Part shown: positions 36,484 through 63,885 of the stretch, one piece after another
How the letters are laid out: every line of letters starts with the position of its first letter
Position numbering within the stretch: the stretch's first letter is position 1
Origin: an uncultured Mycoplasmatota bacterium
Lineage (GTDB): Bacteria > Bacillota_I > Bacilli_A > RF39 > UBA660
Reading direction: 5' to 3'
Length of the DNA: 64,000 nucleotides
Assembly: GCA_947570175.1 (NCBI GenBank)
Contig: CANOTJ010000004.1
Span: 1-64,000 of the forward strand
Notes under the pieces: generated by a model
Databases searched by the model: none
What the model was told of the DNA's origin: nothing
The model's input: the letters and a program-made list of their open reading frames with translations, nothing else
Translations under genes and position numbers: made by a program

Positions 36484-36557
36484 GCCGATTTAGTTTAGTG
36501 GTAAAACAGGTCCTTGGTAAGGATCAGAGACAAGTTCAATTCTCGTAATCGGCACCA
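36484..36557 (+). tRNA. tRNA-Thr (GGT)
   Basis: Acceptor GCCGATT / AATCGGC, D stem GTTT / AAAC, anticodon stem GGTCC / GGATC, loop TTGGTAA giving anticodon GGT, encoded CCA. The T stem ACAAG / CTCGT contains one A-C mismatch, unusual but not disabling. The accessory region begins right after it. Confidence 0.87.
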
Positions 36558-36570
36558 TATAGATAGGAAA

Positions 36571-36625
36571 CTCGAACTTTTAATTCGAGAGTAATAAATT
36601 GCTAACTAGAAATAGTTAGTTTTTT
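36571..36625 (+). ncRNA. RNA module copy D: TCGAA hairpin plus terminator after tRNA-Thr
   Basis: The hairpin CTCGAA / TTCGAG (36571-36589) is followed by AGTAATAAAT and then a terminator, CTAACTA / TAGTTAG with six T (36602-36625). It ends the tRNA transcript. The same arrangement recurs at 40.2, 41.0 and 42.2 kb. Copy D and the following ORF start are related to copy C and the ORF fragment after it. Confidence 0.7.
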
Positions 36626-36654
36626 GTTGTTTAAAGGAAAGTGAGAGTGATTAT

Positions 36655-36930
36655 ATGACAATAGAAACTAAAGAACTTGTAATAAGTGAGGAATTAAGAA
36701 AGAAAGTAGATATGATATGTAAATTTGCTTGTGTTAAATATGAACTAGTTAATGGAAGAATTATTAATATTAAAAACACTAATATTACCTATGTAAAACC
36801 ACATATTTTAAAAGTTAATGGTAATGACTATTTATTATTTGATGAGTGTGATGACATATTTATAAATGGTTATGACAAGAAAATAAAATCTAAAGATTTG
36901 GAAGACTATTTAAAGTCAAGTTTATTGTAA
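36655..36930 (+). CDS. Small hypothetical protein next to serine recombinase (91 aa)
   Basis: A soluble 91-aa protein beginning MTIETKELVISEELRKKVDM, with FACVKYELVNGRIINIKNTN and YLLFDECDDIF. I do not recognise it; it looks like a small beta-rich domain. A truncated relative is present at 42343. It sits 48 bases before the recombinase and may be an accessory recombination protein. Confidence 0.6.
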   Translation: MTIETKELVISEELRKKVDMICKFACVKYELVNGRIINIKNTNITYVKPHILKVNGNDYLLFDECDDIFINGYDKKIKSKDLEDYLKSSLL

Positions 36931-36975
36931 TTTATAGAAAAAATGATAAAATAGTTTATCAAAAAGGAGGAATGA

Positions 36976-38836
<1,861 letters not shown>

Positions 38837-38838
<2 letters not shown>

Positions 38839-39090
38839 TCATCCTATAAAATTTACTAAAAATATTGAAATAGGATGAAAATTGAAAATACAAAATACTT
38901 TAATTATAATGGTTAAATAATTATCCATCCTTAATATCAACCTACAAAGTAGGATGAATTTTGCAAGTGCAAAATCAGATTTGTGTATATGCAATTCCTT
39001 ATGAAATAAGGGCTAAATTGCATATGATACACAAACTTCTTATCCTGCTCTTTTAGATATTAGCAAATTTTATAGTATGTTCATCCTAGT
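38837..39090. repeat. Inverted-repeat cluster after the recombinase
   Basis: No gene is seen in 38839-39173. TCATCCTAT (starting at 38838) faces ATAGGATGA about 35 bases on; further TAGGATGAA and TTCATCCTA copies follow to about 39086. Inside lies a long palindrome (about 38980-39033) with arms TGTGTATATGCAATT and AATTGCATATGATACACA around an inner TTAT...ATAA. These are likely recombinase or regulatory sites, or strong RNA hairpins. Confidence 0.55.
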
Positions 39091-39173
39091 TAATTATTTA
39101 GAAATTATCTAACTAGGTAGACTTTATTATTAAAAAGTAGTATAATTTTAGTAACGTTTATAGGAGGTGTTTT

Positions 39174-39779
39174 ATGTCTAATAAAGAGATATTAGATAAA
39201 ATCAAAAACTTATCAAATAATGAAAAAAGAAATATTGCTTATGAAGAATTAATTAAGATTATTAATCAGCTTTCTCCAAATGAAATTATTGAACTTTCAA
39301 ATATTATTGGTTATCCTGTATTTACGAGATTATGTATGGGTGTTTTAAAACATAAATTCGTTTTATTACAAGATGGAGCAGCAGCAATTATAGTAAACGA
39401 AAATGGGCAAATTTTACTGCAATCAAGAGCAGATAATGATAGATGGGGATTACCTGGTGGTTGTCAAGAATTAGGAGAACGATTTGAAGATACAGTAATT
39501 CGTGAAGTTAAGGAAGAAACTAATCTTGATATAACAGAAGACAATTTAGAATTAATAGCAGTTGTTTCAGGCAATACTAGACGAAATGAGTATCCAAATG
39601 GAGATGTTGTTATCAATAATACAGCACTTTATTGTGTCAAAAATTATTCTGGAGAATTAAAATGGGATAGTGAATCAAAGAATATGAAATTTTTTGATTT
39701 AGATAATTTGCCTAGCAATCAAAATGATCCGGATTTAATAGATATTTATATAAAGTCTTTAAACAAAAAAAGTTTATAA
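39174..39779 (+). CDS. Nudix hydrolase
   Basis: A Nudix domain of about 140 aa follows an N-terminal helical extension of about 60 aa. The Nudix box is present: GGCQELGERFEDTVIREVKEE, with the RE..EE metal residues intact. Such enzymes hydrolyse nucleoside diphosphate derivatives; the substrate is not assignable. AGGAGGTG precedes the ATG. Confidence 0.9.
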   Translation: MSNKEILDKIKNLSNNEKRNIAYEELIKIINQLSPNEIIELSNIIGYPVFTRLCMGVLKHKFVLLQDGAAAIIVNENGQILLQSRADNDRWGLPGGCQELGERFEDTVIREVKEETNLDITEDNLELIAVVSGNTRRNEYPNGDVVINNTALYCVKNYSGELKWDSESKNMKFFDLDNLPSNQNDPDLIDIYIKSLNKKSL

Positions 39780-39812
39780 AATGTTAGGACTTAAAAATAA
39801 AAAAATTGATTT

Positions 39813-39841
39813 TTGACAAGAACCTAAAAATATGTTATTAT
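39813..39841 (+). promoter_or_regulatory. Promoter of the antisense RNA
   Basis: TTGACA, exactly 17 bases, TATTAT: a near-consensus housekeeping promoter with no coding frame behind it. Confidence 0.85.
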
Positions 39842-39847
39842 GAATAT

Positions 39848-39966
39848 GTCAAGGAAACTTGCATAAAATAAAAAAGAGGAACATTCGATTCTGCAAGTGA
39901 ATGTCGCCTCTGAATAATTTAGAATTGACACTCAATCAGCGATGAAAGAGTGTCATATTTTTATTG
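39848..39966 (+). ncRNA. Candidate type I antitoxin RNA
   Basis: An RNA of about 115 nt is expected from the TTGACA-N17-TATTAT promoter to a terminator, GACACTC / GAGTGTC (39927-39954) followed by ATATTTTTATT. It has no credible ORF. It runs antisense to the 3' half of the hydrophobic-peptide mRNA on the minus strand (overlap about 39867-39966), covering its last codons and terminator. This is the arrangement of known type I systems such as txpA/RatA and bsrG/SR4; the assignment here is by architecture, not homology. Confidence 0.72.
39875..39911 (-). terminator. Terminator of the hydrophobic-peptide mRNA
   Basis: On the minus strand a long hairpin, AGAGG-CG-ACATTC / GAATGT-T-CCTCT, is followed by TTTTTTATTTT. 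Confidence 0.8.
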
Positions 39967-40045
39967 CTATTACCAATAAGGTAAGGAGTAATAAAATGAT
40001 AGCAATAAGACGAAGGACTTTAATAATAAAAGTTCTTTTCTTCAT
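39953..40045 (-). CDS. Candidate type I toxin: 30-aa hydrophobic peptide
   Basis: ATG at 40045 has a near-perfect AAAGGAGG at normal spacing. The 30-aa peptide starts MKKR, has one hydrophobic span (LIAIILLLLTLLVIA) and ends IKI: the charge/helix/charge layout of membrane-acting type I toxins. Its mRNA has its own promoter (TTGTTT-N17-TATAAT, 40108-40136) and its own strong terminator (39875-39911 with a T tract on this strand). In the 5' leader CCTCC (40073-40077) can pair with the ribosome site GGAGG, and GAGTGTC (40080-40086) can pair with GACACTC just after the stop codon, so translation is probably blocked in the full-length mRNA. Confidence 0.72.
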   Translation of the reverse strand: MKKRTFIIKVLRLIAIILLLLTLLVIAIKI

Positions 40046-40107
40046 TGTATCCCTCCTTTCTTTCTCAAGATTGGAGGACGACACTCACATCAAATGTTCC
40101 TATAAAA

Positions 40108-40136
40108 ATTATATACTATGTGCAGTATTAAAACAA
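40108..40136 (-). promoter_or_regulatory. Promoter of the hydrophobic-peptide mRNA
   Basis: On the minus strand: TTGTTT (40131-40136), 17-base spacer, TATAAT (40108-40113); start near 40101, giving a leader of about 56 nt. Confidence 0.75.
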
Positions 40137-40186
40137 GCTAACAAGTAAAATTTTTAGAACAAAATTTTGTATTTCATGCTATACTT

Positions 40187-40345
40187 GTATTAGTTAGTAA
40201 TTATTACTATCTATTATTGCTTTTGAGAAAAGTTATTCGACTTCTTCTTCACGGTCACCAGTGTCGAACCTGTTCGAACTATTCGAACTTTATATAAATA
40301 TCAACTCAAAATTAAATTGAAAGTAGTTTTATTTTGTCAATTTAG
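40187..40345 (+). ncRNA. RNA module copy A
   Basis: Downstream of a TATACT -10 (40180-40185) the sequence is alignable over about 110 bp with copy B at 40987. Features in order: an AT-rich 5' part, a small stem CAC / GTG enclosing GGTCACCA, the perfect hairpin GTTCGAACTATTCGAAC (40272-40288), the spacer ending ATAAAT, and a weak terminator (40303-40339). It lies before the J-domain gene, which has its own promoter (TTGATT-N16-TATAAT at 40402-40429). Confidence 0.5.
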
Positions 40346-40456
40346 TAAACACACTTGCACATTGACATAATCAATGTACGTGTGAAATTGATTTCATCAA
40401 CTTGATTTTTTAGAAAAATATTGTATAATATATTTACTTTTGAAAGGGGCAATCTT

Positions 40457-40948
40457 ATGCAATCACTAAATAAAAATAATTATTATGAAATTTTAGAAAT
40501 TTCACCAACTGCTACCCAAGATGAAATAAAAAAGGCTTTTAGAAAATTAGCAAAAAGATATCATCCAGATATAAATCCTGAAGATCCCAATGCTAATGCT
40601 AAAATGCAAAAGATAACTGCAGCATATGAAGTGTTATCCGATGTTGAAAAAAGAAAAGAGTATGATAGACAACATTCTGTTGAATCACATTTTGAAAGTT
40701 CAAAATCATATTATTCATATAACCAATCAAAAGAAGAATCTGAAAGAGATTTTGAAGATTGGATTATCAACTTATTAAAGAATTACAGAATGTACAATGG
40801 AAAAGATAGTGAACTGGAAAAGTTATATAAAGCAAAAGAAATTCTTTTTCAATTAAAACATTCTAATCCTATTTCTATTTATTCAGAATCAGAAGAACCA
40901 CAAACAAAAAAAGGTTTAATTAAAAGGGTGTTAAGAAAAGCAAAATAA
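40457..40948 (+). CDS. J-domain (DnaJ-like) co-chaperone, short
   Basis: The N-terminal J domain is complete: [20 protein letters not shown], then [14 protein letters not shown] with the HPD motif, and [15 protein letters not shown]. The remaining approximately 95 residues are a charged helical tail ending in basic residues, without zinc fingers or the C-terminal peptide-binding domains, so it is not DnaJ itself. It would stimulate an Hsp70 for a specific client. GAAAGGGG precedes ATG 40457. Confidence 0.88.
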
Positions 40949-40986
40949 TTATAGAAAAAATATAAATAATGTGTTATACTTTAGTC

Positions 40987-41126
40987 AGTTAATAAATTAT
41001 TACTGTCTATTTCTTTTTGCTCTAAGAGTTGTTGTCTGTCCTCTCGAAGGGAACCAGAGAAGAATCCGTTCGAACTATTCGAACTTTCAATAAATGATAA
41101 CAGCAAATAAAACTGTTATTTTTTAT
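40987..41126 (+). ncRNA. RNA module copy B
   Basis: Behind a TATACT -10 (40975-40980), related to copy A along its length. The stem under the ACCA loop is CTC / GAG here instead of CAC / GTG in A, a compensatory change. The hairpin GTTCGAACTATTCGAAC is identical (41068-41084). It ends in a strong terminator ATAACAG / CTGTTAT plus six T (41097-41126). The stretch from there to the next gene (41127-41353) holds a weak inverted repeat (ATACCC / GGGTAT, 41127-41170) and nothing else I can name. Confidence 0.55.
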
Positions 41127-41353
41127 ACCCCCAGAGATTTTGGTATGCTTGGCAAAATACTTAGAGGGTATCTATATCAAAATTAAGAATTAAATTCTAT
41201 ATTTAGTTTTTAAAGATATTCTCGAAATACAGGGTGAGTTAAATATTTTGTCATAACAAAAGATTAAAAAAAGAGTTATGATAACTAAAAAGATAAAAAG
41301 AATTAATCAAAGAGTTTAGTATTTTTTATAAGATTTTCTATGTGGGTGATATT

Positions 41354-42181
41354 ATGGAATTTAAAGAAGTATATACAAATTTTAATGACTTTTATTATTA
41401 CAGGTTAAATGATATGATTAATGCTAGTAATAGTAGATATATTGAATTTTTTAATAAAATCAAGAGAAAAAATATAGATTTGACTAAAGTAATATATAAA
41501 AGGTTAGTAGATGATTATGAAGAAATAAAAACTAATTCTAAACAATTTGGACTTCTCCCAATGGGAATTAAGAATAGTAGCGTTCCAAGTTATTTTATTG
41601 AAGGTAAAGAAGTAAAAGTATCCGGAAAGTACGGGAATTTAAACGTATTTAAAAATATGTTTTTATATGAAACTCATTGGAGTTCTTTATATTATCATTC
41701 AAAAGATCAACTAAAGCAAGTATTCAAAAAAGTATGTGATTCTTATATTGACCACTATAGGAAAAATTTAAATGAGGTTTGGAATGAGGAAGATTTTTAT
41801 TCAAGACTATTAGATTTAAAATATTTATCTGTTAAATATGCTGAAGATTTAGAAACAGGAGAAATATTTGCTATGGGCTTTTTTGGAACTTTAGTAAAAA
41901 ATAGTGCAGGCGGAAAAACATTAACAGATGCAGAATTATATGTAATGCCAGAATTTCGGAATATGGGAATTGCCAAAAGAATGGTTGGCTTAACTTTCGA
42001 ATTAGCTAAAAACGATGGTATTGAAAATTTTGATTCTATTACTTACCGTGTGCAGTCATGTGATGCCTTATCATTTTGGCAAAGGATAGGAGCTTCTGTA
42101 ACAGGTCTTACTCACATAGAAGGAAGTATCCCAGAAATAATAGAAATTATCGATAGTAATAAGAAAAATAAAAGTCTTTAA
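41354..42181 (+). CDS. GNAT-family acetyltransferase with long N-terminal region
   Basis: The C-terminal half looks like a GNAT fold: TDAELYVMPEFRNMGIAKRM (acetyl-CoA loop R-x-x-G-I-A), then GLTFELAKNDG and a late SFWQRIGAS. The N-terminal 150 residues are helical and unassigned. The length is about 275 aa. ATG at 41354 follows GTGGGTGAT. The substrate is unknown. Flanked by RNA modules B and C. Confidence 0.72.
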   Translation: MEFKEVYTNFNDFYYYRLNDMINASNSRYIEFFNKIKRKNIDLTKVIYKRLVDDYEEIKTNSKQFGLLPMGIKNSSVPSYFIEGKEVKVSGKYGNLNVFKNMFLYETHWSSLYYHSKDQLKQVFKKVCDSYIDHYRKNLNEVWNEEDFYSRLLDLKYLSVKYAEDLETGEIFAMGFFGTLVKNSAGGKTLTDAELYVMPEFRNMGIAKRMVGLTFELAKNDGIENFDSITYRVQSCDALSFWQRIGASVTGLTHIEGSIPEIIEIIDSNKKNKSL

Positions 42182-42207
42182 TTTAGGAAAATCTGTATAC
42201 TTATTAA

Positions 42208-42311
42208 GTAACAAAGTTGTAGATATCTACGATACTCGCACCAGATTTGCTTGATACCCGAACTTTTTATTCGAGAGTAATAAATATTAACTAGAAGCAA
42301 CTAGTTTTTTT
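42208..42311 (+). ncRNA. RNA module copy C
   Basis: A shorter member behind TATACT (42196-42201): a palindrome GTAGATATCTAC, then CGCACCA, the hairpin CGAA / TTCG (42259-42273), AGAGTAATAAAT, and a strong terminator AACTAG / CTAGTT plus seven T (42289-42311). From 42259 onward it is clearly related to copy D at 36573, continuing into the ORF that follows each. Confidence 0.55.
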
Positions 42312-42342
42312 GTTATTTAAGAATGGGAGTGAAGAGTTTTTT

Positions 42343-42465
42343 ATGAAAGTAGAAGTAAAAGAATTAAAAATTAATAATGAACTACAAAAAAAGATTAATA
42401 TGACATGTAGATTTGCTTGTGTTAAGCCTATTATTTTGAAGGTAGTTTTTTTAATCAATTTATAA
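42343..42465 (+). pseudogene. Truncated copy of the 91-aa recombinase-associated protein
   Basis: A 40-codon frame beginning MKVEVKELKINNELQKKINM and running into FACVKPIILKV. It matches the 36655 gene but jumps from FACVK straight to the later KPHILKV segment, an internal deletion of roughly 20 codons, then ends early. It is a remnant of a second copy of the tRNA-side module. Confidence 0.75.
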
Positions 42466-42545: not shown

Positions 42546-43739
42546 ATGGATATATTAAAAGATAATTTTTTTAAAGTAACTACTTCTACAAATAATTCAT
42601 GTGTATCTGCAATTATAAAGTGTTTACAAAATACGAAAGATATAGAGTTATATCGGAAATGGATTGCGAAAGAGTATAATACAAACGTTGAAGATGAGAA
42701 AGTACAAATAAGGTTGAATTTGATATTAAAATTAAAAAACAAAATAGATGAGGTTACATCTTCTGAAGATAAAAATCAAATATTAAATTATTTATCAAGA
42801 TTACTATCCGCTAAATATTCAGGTAGTAAGCAATCGGATAGTATGATTTCCTTAACACTAGATAAATTGATATATTCATTCAAAAACAAAAAACCAATTA
42901 TATTTATATTTGGATTTGGTGGTTATAAAAATTATCATTCACCTTCGTTCCCAGAAGTAGATTATTCTGAGTTGTTTCATATGAAATATATGACTGAATT
43001 TTTATTTCCTATTATTACCACTTATAAATATGGAGTTATATTGGAATATGAAAGTGAAGAAATTTCTATACAATTTAATAATGTACCTCAGGAAACAACG
43101 AATAAATATACAGTTTCGTTTAGAAAACTGTTAGAGTATTTTATAAAGAAAATAGAAGAGCAAAATGATATAAAATTAAATTACAAATTAGTAATGGCGA
43201 GGGAAATGTATAATCCAGAAGATTTATATAAAAAGATGCAGGAATATTACCCATCTATGCAAAAACAATTTGATAATTTAACACAAAAGGAACAAAAAAT
43301 ATGGTTCAAACGAGCTAAAACAAATTTTCTAATAAACGGAACTGAAGATTTCTCGCATCTTACAGAATTAGAATTAAATAATAAAATTATAGAAGCAAGA
43401 ATTAATAATGAATGTTTCTTGGCAGCAGATTACGATCTTCGTATGGATTTTTGGGAAAGATCAAATGCGATTTCTTTATTTGGAACTTGGGGGAAAACAC
43501 CATGCGCATCACCAACAGATAGTGGGTTACATTTAAAGTCAACAAGAGCTTCCAATACAGATTTTTGGATTGGTACTGGTATTTTTAAATTAGACGAAAA
43601 AGATAAAATTATACAAGAATTGATATTGTCACATACACAATATCAGGATAAGAAAAATGAAATAAATTATTTAAAATCAAAGGATAGTGAACTAAAACAC
43701 ATCTCTAGTAATTTTGACTTAATTCCCTATATAAAATAA
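42546..43739 (+). CDS. Unassigned enzyme-like protein (397 aa)
   Basis: I do not recognise this with confidence. It is soluble, with a notable segment PIIFIFGFGGYKNYHSPSFP followed by EVDYSELFHMKYMTEF, and a conserved-looking late part, FGTWGKTPCASPTDSGLHLK then STRASNTDFWIGTG. The middle segment faintly recalls PvcA/DIT1-type isonitrile synthases, which I treat as a weak lead only. GAAGGAGGA is well placed before the ATG, and an extended -10 (TGTTATAAT) lies upstream. A DHH-family fragment follows in the same frame. Confidence 0.6.
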   Translation: MDILKDNFFKVTTSTNNSCVSAIIKCLQNTKDIELYRKWIAKEYNTNVEDEKVQIRLNLILKLKNKIDEVTSSEDKNQILNYLSRLLSAKYSGSKQSDSMISLTLDKLIYSFKNKKPIIFIFGFGGYKNYHSPSFPEVDYSELFHMKYMTEFLFPIITTYKYGVILEYESEEISIQFNNVPQETTNKYTVSFRKLLEYFIKKIEEQNDIKLNYKLVMAREMYNPEDLYKKMQEYYPSMQKQFDNLTQKEQKIWFKRAKTNFLINGTEDFSHLTELELNNKIIEARINNECFLAADYDLRMDFWERSNAISLFGTWGKTPCASPTDSGLHLKSTRASNTDFWIGTGIFKLDEKDKIIQELILSHTQYQDKKNEINYLKSKDSELKHISSNFDLIPYIK

Positions 43740-47419: not shown

Positions 47420-47429
47420 TTTTCTATCA

Positions 47430-47657
47430 ACTTGGATGGAGAGAGTAATAAAAATCATTTTATTAAAGCGAGTTAGGTACGGTGGAAGCTAACAATAAAA
47501 CTTTTATGAAGAACACTCTGGAGTTGCTTATATGAAACAAAGTAGTGTAAGCCGGGTTTCCCGTTATCGATATCAAGAGATCACAGATGTGATAATTAGG
47601 GTGGTACCGCGGATAAATAGTAATTCGTCCCTTTGGGATTGAACTACTATTTTTTTA
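47430..47657 (+). promoter_or_regulatory. T-box leader, specifier read as AAC (Asn)
   Basis: The T-box AGGGTGGTACCGCG lies at 47598-47611 and is followed by a terminator (AAATAGT / ACTATT plus T run, ending about 47657) and a competing antiterminator. Stem I opens with GGAGAG and the AGTA bulge; its 3' side reads GAAC-A-CTCT, placing AAC (Asn) plus a purine in the specifier position. Uncharged tRNA-Asn would then switch on the operon, which fits a GatCAB-AsnS context. Confidence 0.88.
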
Positions 47658-56598: not shown

Positions 56599-56603
56599 AA
56601 AAA

Positions 56604-56765
56604 CACTAGAAGGAAAATATTTGAAAAAACCTACAAGTTTAACGATTGGGAATCTAATTTATAAATGGTGTTGAAGGCTTATTTTAATAAGAATCCTAAA
56701 ATTTATAATGTGATGCCCACCTGGGAGATCAGGTTTTATCGTTAATATATCCTTCTAGTTTTTGT
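56604..56765 (+). ncRNA. ssrS: 6S RNA (candidate)
   Basis: A transcript of about 160 nt is closed by a perfect terminal stem, ACTAGAAGG (56605-56613) with CCTTCTAGT (56751-56759), followed by TTTTTG. Between them is an interrupted long-hairpin layout including GTGATGCCCACCTGGGAGAT near the 3' side, which I associate with Bacillota 6S RNAs. 6S RNA sequesters housekeeping RNA polymerase in stationary phase. Identified by layout and partial sequence memory; a covariance search would settle it. Confidence 0.7.
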
Positions 56766-63748: not shown

Positions 63749-63764
63749 GAATTTGTTTGTGAAT

Positions 63765-63885
63765 ATTGTACCGTAGACAGTAGGTGTAGAAATACTTAAT
63801 TTCCTACCGAGGAACTTGAAATATATTTCAGTTTTTGGGCTCTTACGGTTGTAGGGGCTTTTTGTACGGGAAAATGAATGGAGGT
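63765..63885 (+). promoter_or_regulatory. L10 leader
   Basis: Sequence ACCGTAGACAGTAGGTG ... CTTAATTTCCTACCGAGGA is the typical Bacillota L10-leader layout (stem around the L10(L12)4-binding kink turn), followed by GGGGCTTTTTGTACGGG. L10-L12 binds such leaders to repress rplJ-rplL. Confidence 0.85.

Follow-up and report, generated by a model that had tools for sequence, protein, structure and literature searches.

The locus described here lies at positions 39813-40136 of a 64,000-nucleotide stretch of DNA (the window) from an uncultured Mycoplasmatota bacterium of the lineage RF39. The minus strand carries a weak −35 box (TTGTTT, 40131-40136) and, after a spacer of 17 nt, a −10 box (TATAAT, 40108-40113), both identified by sequence match. 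They are followed by a leader, a Shine-Dalgarno sequence (GGAGG, 40052-40056) located six bases 5' of the ATG, and an open reading frame of 30 codons (39956-40045; stop codon TGA at 39953-39955), which was recognized as the putative toxin gene by its constant length and by purifying selection. The encoded peptide, MKKRTFIIKVLRLIAIILLLLTLLVIAIKI, has a head rich in lysine and arginine, a single hydrophobic span, and a lysine close to the C-terminus. The sense terminator is a hairpin followed by T6 (39876-39910). From promoter and terminator, a toxin mRNA of about 233 nt is predicted (39870-40102, minus strand), which folds into a 5'-3' panhandle. Its leader arm, AGGAACATT plus GTGAGTGTCGTCCTC (40074-40101), finds its 3' partner in the sense terminator hairpin, whose plus-strand equivalent is hairpin 2 of the putative antitoxin RNA; the leader arm is similar to this hairpin. 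A second, local hairpin (CCTCC...GGAGG, 40052-40077) masks the Shine-Dalgarno sequence in the predicted fold.

On the plus strand, the antitoxin promoter (39813-39841) consists of TTGACA (39813-39818) and, 17 nt downstream, a TG-extended −10 box (TATTAT, 39836-39841); with 11 of 12 positions matching, it is the best promoter within 2 kb. The RNA predicted from it (approximately 117 nt, 39848-39964), the ends of which are likewise inferred, contains no conserved ORF. It starts with a small hairpin, CAAG-GAAA-CTTG (39850-39861), both stem sides of which vary together across copies of the locus, and ends with the terminator hairpin GACACTC...GAGTGTC (39927-39954) and a U-tract (39927-39962 in total). 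The two predicted transcripts are convergent and overlap from the last toxin codons to the sense terminator, while the sense terminator (39876-39910) and the antisense terminator (39927-39954) are two separate hairpins. A preceding sequence-only reading of this DNA had proposed the same two-strand arrangement of promoters, leader, 30-amino-acid frame, and terminators, all of which were recovered in the window sequence at the places assigned to them. The 3' overlap of about 100 nt assumed there amounts to about 95 nt when calculated from the predicted ends, and the supposed masking of the ribosome-binding site by CCTCC corresponds to the local hairpin in the predicted mRNA fold. A search of the locus against Rfam, at the gathering cut-off and at E ≤ 10, returned chance matches only. 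Elsewhere in the window, Rfam RNAs of an ordinary kind were found, namely a T-box leader (47424-47635), a 6S RNA (56600-56765), and an L10 leader (63753-63873).

A homologue search with the 30-amino-acid peptide, suggested as a check in the sequence-only reading, detected the frame in 190 of the 385 genomes of the order, many of which contain several copies, some in tandem. The second copy in the bacterium's own draft genome (1.38 Mb) shares 69% peptide identity with the window copy and has kept the promoters and terminators. Conservation of the DNA without conservation of the frame would have refuted the proposed toxin gene. However, 215 of 240 copies, which are partly redundant, comprise exactly 30 codons, and a strong Shine-Dalgarno sequence was present in 211 of 219. 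The pN/pS ratio was 0.26 in the peptide frame and ranged from 0.40 to 1.93 in the other five frames (72 disjoint pairs of distinct ORFs; 109 distinct peptides). Judged from these alignments, the toxin frame is under purifying selection, and the rare broken copies, which exhibit an internal deletion, an early stop codon, or a fused frame, look like products of decay.

Profile searches with the peptide against Pfam, NCBIfam, PHROGs, and PDB did not reveal any family match. A Pfam scan with 22 members at E ≤ 10 gave no match to Fst (PF13955), and none was found in the bacterium's own genome either. Homology to TxpA or BsrG was not indicated by Pfam, NCBIfam, or PHROGs, although the presence of models for such toxins in these libraries is unverified. 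The species-genome collection was searched with a DNA pattern of the toxin core; among the matches listed, nearly all were metagenome assemblies with titles such as uncultured Bacilli or Tenericutes, and Ca. Ventrenecus, Onthousia, and Scybalousia were represented. All hosts observed are uncultured metagenome assemblies. A single strong match outside the order (G551) contains the full cassette and could be the result of transfer or misbinning; the other matches outside the order are mostly due to chance. No toxin match was obtained in phage and plasmid records, and among viral contigs (IMG/VR), the toxin core pattern occurred in only two (L232 and L233), which argues against its being mainly a phage gene.

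The conservation of the promoters was counted over 125 non-redundant copies. The TG-extended −10 box of the antisense promoter is kept in 115 of these, and the combined scores of this promoter are far above those of shuffled sequences. Of the two promoters, that of the toxin has the weaker −35 box across the copies. In the alignment of the copies, both sides of the antisense terminator stem change at several positions, giving several pair types, and the 5' hairpin occurs as CAAG/CTTG, GAAG/CTTC, or GCAA/TTGC. The C-terminal codons of the toxin are complementary to the antisense U-tract, an arrangement that may account for the I-K-K or I-K-I end of the peptide. By these alignment criteria, the antisense gene is real and possesses its own promoter and terminator. 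For the antitoxin RNA model, RNAalifold yielded just 9 pairs, so that the model acts mainly on sequence.

The toxin mRNA of the window is predicted to fold with −77 kcal/mol, compared to −43 kcal/mol in shuffles (z = −8.05), and none of 200 shuffles was as good. Together with the second copy in the same genome and the occurrence of the peptide in about half of the genomes of the order, this stability indicates that the locus did not arise by chance. In the predicted fold, the Shine-Dalgarno sequence is located inside the CCTCC/GGAGG hairpin, and the leader is paired with the terminator region. The panhandle was predicted in 118 of 123 copies, compared to 16 of 123 when the leader was shuffled. 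In the type B panhandle, 95.9% of the cells are paired and 10 two-sided pair changes were counted (3.7 in shuffles); type A displayed 4 such changes (0.9 in shuffles), and neither count was reached in any of 500 shuffles. When the partner was slid by one to three columns, pairing did not exceed 58%. Moreover, the pairing of a leader is stronger with the terminator arm of its own copy than with arms taken from different copies within the subtype (0 of 5000 permutations as good). Because the copies are related, the covariation counts overstate independence and are not to be taken as probabilities; the panhandle was also drawn from members of the alignments used for these counts. With this restriction, the covariation supports a toxin mRNA closed by 5'-3' pairing of leader and terminator. 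A different lock had been suggested beforehand, formed by GAGTGTC in the leader and GACACTC behind the stop codon. The two motifs are indeed complementary, but copy-specific matching was not detected (p = 0.06 and 0.72); this pairing failed the comparison within and between copies and was rejected in favor of the terminator region as partner.

In both subtypes, the leader is almost identical in sequence to antitoxin hairpin 2, and each of the two is able to pair with the same 3' segment. Because of this resemblance, the leader may compete with the antitoxin, and it is conceivable that in a type I system of this kind the leader serves mainly as a decoy for the mRNA 3' end and not as a translation lock. 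We consider such a main role unlikely, since the same pairing closes the mRNA beside the Shine-Dalgarno hairpin, but from sequence alone the two roles are indistinguishable.

Within the order, the antitoxin RNA model had matches in 75 of 117 genomes (E ≤ 1e-4). The six matches in the bacterium's own genome comprise the two known loci, two loci with the same RNA chassis and a MRKKDEYLCTIIILLIIVILVILIKIVPTV peptide (L299, C1:138929-139051; L300, C6:29669-29790), and two loci without a clear ORF. In other genomes, the peptides encoded at the matches include MKKKDLLISFLILIIILLIVSLMILCIKK, MNKKDFLIFALIVVILLLIALLFVILK, and others, and are hydrophobic. Using single-base shuffles as control, 10 of 11 folded members of these other-peptide types had z-scores between about −6 and −9, and their leader was paired with the 3' end; the fold of L327 was weaker (z −3.4). 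No hydrophobic ORF behind a Shine-Dalgarno sequence was detected in 18 of 49 matches with a relaxed stop position, a sample that was picked for weak peptide matches and does not represent a frequency. Such solitary antitoxins are expected if the toxin decays before the antidote. From the searches with peptide and RNA model, hundreds of relatives of the locus are recognizable in uncultured gut bacteria, some encoding other peptides; the same putative control chassis carries different toxin peptides and also occurs without a toxin. Since different peptides share one chassis, the conserved part appears to be the expression control.

The toxicity of the peptide is only inferred, and small hydrophobic peptides are also regulators of membrane proteins. 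A non-toxic role of the hydrophobic 30-amino-acid peptide could therefore be envisaged, in which it would be a small regulator or signal in the membrane, merely tuned by the antisense RNA and not poisoning its own cell. Weak matches to MgtR below the threshold point in this direction (3 of 22 members, best E 0.084) but are not significant. This possibility is regarded as very unlikely, because multiple, mobile, decayed, and antitoxin-only copies suit addiction and hardly suit a housekeeping regulator, and because one RNA chassis is common to different peptides.

The toxin-antitoxin locus is situated at the right end of an integrative element of 3.7 kb (36559-40260, plus strand), which was delimited by comparison with ends shared in other genomes. 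The integration target is a tRNA-Thr gene (ggt, 36484-36557, plus strand), and its CCA end forms the left boundary of the element; the left end located 3' of this CCA (36557) reads TATAGATAGGAAACTCGAAC, apart from an uncertainty of one base at the boundary. Of the element genes, the small ORF, the recombinase, and the Nudix gene are encoded on the plus strand. A conserved ORF of 91 amino acids without assigned function (36655-36930) adjoins a large serine recombinase (36979-38838, 619 amino acids) with Resolvase and Recombinase domains, among whose best-scoring relatives CcrB was found, although below the cut-off. A Nudix hydrolase (39174-39779) represents variable cargo, and the right end (40230-40260) is AAGTTATTCGACTTCTTCTTCACGGTCACCA. 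The left end TATAGATAGGAAACTCGAAC was also identified 3' of a tRNA-Phe gene (L248) and of a tmRNA gene (L249), whose 3' end is the integration site (L249 5356-5716). In all three cases, the order is left end, ORF of 89-99 amino acids, serine recombinase, variable cargo, toxin-antitoxin locus, and right end. The recombinases of L248 and L249 are approximately 89-98% identical to that of the window, and the L249 frame is split by a stop codon. The shared right end has the form AAAAGTTATTCRACTTCTTCTTCA...CACCA with the conserved block AAGTTRTTCRACTTCTTC; a search for right ends by the hairpin alone gave 4 matches only. Right end and recombinase also occur in L152 and L251, both truncated on the left by a contig end, and the element with recombinase and the same right end is found in five genomes including that of the window.

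To the right of the element (40261-42440), the window contains a DnaJ-domain gene, a GNAT gene, and a decayed copy of the 91-amino-acid ORF. These modules begin with CCA-like ends and TTCGAAC or similar hairpin linkers (at about 40261, 41067, and 42243) and resemble a tandem array of tRNA-end integrations. The adjacent ORF of 397 amino acids (42546-43739) has no significant match in Pfam or NCBIfam.

Many copies of the toxin-antitoxin locus are located outside any recognized element. In 52 of 174 distinct copies, a tRNA gene facing the antitoxin promoter ends at most 260 bp from the toxin stop codon; on the opposite side, a tRNA was found within 500 bp in only 1 of 110 copies. In tRNA-linked copies, the hairpin on the tRNA side (e.g., CGACTTGTCAAAAAGTCGTTTTT) includes the antitoxin −35 box. 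In many loci (e.g., L016, L018, L066, L145, and L178), the linkers directly behind the CCA of a wide variety of tRNAs share sequence (GATTGATAGGAAACTCGAAC..., GTGACGAATCTGTTCGAAC...), and a terminator-like hairpin in this place overlaps the antitoxin −35 box. The fixed distance from many different tRNA genes, the shared element ends, and the frequent position of copies at contig ends would be compatible with a mainly selfish repeat that forms a miniature mobile unit of the serine recombinase, with hairpins serving recombination and an incidental ORF. As the sole explanation, this is contradicted by the coding constraint: selection acts on one frame (pN/pS 0.26) of exactly 30 codons behind Shine-Dalgarno sites, two promoters are kept at fixed positions, and the hairpins are unlike the element ends. 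We therefore hold it to be extremely unlikely. The mobility of the locus is real and compatible with a type I module.

The lexA promoters in these genomes contain boxes such as CGAACACTTGTTTG, and CAAACATTTGTTTG was found in the bacterium's own genome. A LexA-type palindrome resembling these boxes, near the −10 box and overlapping the toxin promoter, was detected in 28 of 125 copies, compared to 0.5 expected from shuffles; the antitoxin promoter regions of these 125 copies contained none. In this subset, the toxin promoter is probably SOS-inducible, an induction that is inferred from the boxes. The toxin promoter of the window copy lacks the palindrome and instead contains TTGTTAGCTTGTTTT, a pattern that is frequent in the family and unexplained. 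Double half-sites similar to TTGTTCGCTTGTTT were observed at the toxin −35 box of the window (40131-40145) and of many copies without LexA palindrome; these are possibly the site of another repressor.

The most plausible interpretation, which we consider very likely, is a type I toxin-antitoxin module stabilizing a small tRNA-targeted integrative element. The type I assignment of the sequence-only reading thus gains support from the coding constraint, the conserved antisense promoter, the terminators, and the covarying closure of the mRNA, all of them properties of the DNA. According to the proposed mechanism, the minus-strand mRNA would be translated into a 30-amino-acid membrane peptide that presumably depolarizes the host's own membrane. 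The mRNA would be silent from its synthesis onward, as the local CCTCC/GGAGG hairpin hides the Shine-Dalgarno sequence; upon completion of the 3' end, the leader would form approximately 25 bp with the terminator region and close the panhandle. Trimming of the 3' end would then open the panhandle, by analogy to hok and aapA. The RNA of about 117 nt expected from the stronger promoter on the plus strand has complementarity to the entire 3' UTR, and pairing is assumed to lead to decay by RNase III. The antitoxin RNA should be short-lived; if it is, loss of the element would leave the toxin mRNA without antidote, an addiction as in plasmids that is inferred here. In C. difficile, type I systems reportedly contribute to the maintenance of mobile elements (PMC7699646).

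The similarity to txpA/RatA, bsrG/SR4, and aapA/isoA stated in the sequence-only reading was borne out by the comparison for the convergent 3' overlap and the 5'-3' closure. In txpA/RatA and bsrG/SR4 of Bacillus subtilis, toxin mRNA and antisense RNA are likewise convergent with 3' overlaps of about 75 and 120 nt (PMC4147584), the peptides are short and hydrophobic, the Shine-Dalgarno sequence lies in a stem (bsrG), and the loci are located on integrated mobile elements (skin and SP-beta). In contrast to these systems, the window mRNA forms a long 5'-3' panhandle, the antitoxin U-tract lies inside the C-terminal codons of the toxin, and the element is a tRNA-targeted recombinase element; the window peptide has half the length of TxpA and belongs to no library family. 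Fst with RNAI-RNAII (par, pAD1) also combines convergent RNAs with a small membrane peptide, and its repeats DRa and DRb are comparable to those common to the leader and the 3' region of the window locus. However, neither a PF13955 match nor a shared bidirectional terminator was found, and because the profile is unmatched and the terminators are separate, the locus was not classified as Fst. In hok/Sok and aapA/IsoA, long-distance 5'-3' pairing silences the full-length mRNA, and local hairpins sequester the Shine-Dalgarno sequence during transcription (PMC6733600), whereas the window antisense RNA covers the 3' UTR, the peptides differ, and 3' trimming has not been demonstrated in the window family. 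The tisB/IstR-1 system shares a membrane peptide of 29-30 amino acids and a LexA box on the toxin but not the antitoxin promoter, as in the 28 copies mentioned above and unlike the window copy. Unlike the window antitoxin, IstR-1 is encoded divergently, and its binding site is in the tisB 5' UTR at a long distance from the start codon (PMC4147584). The ssrA islands of Dehalococcoides and SCC elements resemble the element in their CcrB-like serine recombinase, the insertion at the 3' end of a conserved gene such as tmRNA, and tandem island arrays (PMC3146451); the window element differs in its size of only 3.7 kb, in its several tRNA and tmRNA targets, and in the type I module at the right end. 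No paper linking RF39 bacteria with toxin-antitoxin systems was found in the literature searched, which excluded most subscription journals. Within these papers and the libraries used, none describes the locus, so that its designation as new can be maintained.

The locus thus belongs to an extensive type I family from uncultured gut Bacilli that has apparently not been described before, in which different toxins are carried on one RNA chassis and modules are tied to a serine recombinase element targeting tRNA and tmRNA genes. More than 100 natural variants are available for testing the silencing of toxin mRNAs. The LexA boxes suggest that a type I toxin is under SOS control in bacteria other than Proteobacteria; the SOS-controlled type I toxins given as examples in one review all come from E. 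coli (PMC6563280). A more far-reaching idea remains speculative and is rather doubtful at present: one control chassis, consisting of panhandle mRNA and antisense RNA, might accept various toxins and spread as a cassette behind tRNA genes, with the antitoxin −35 box of many copies placed in the post-tRNA hairpin. If this is true, the antitoxin supply would be tied to tRNA transcription and, in copies with LexA box, the toxin to DNA damage, so that the module would sense the growth state in addition to the loss of the element.
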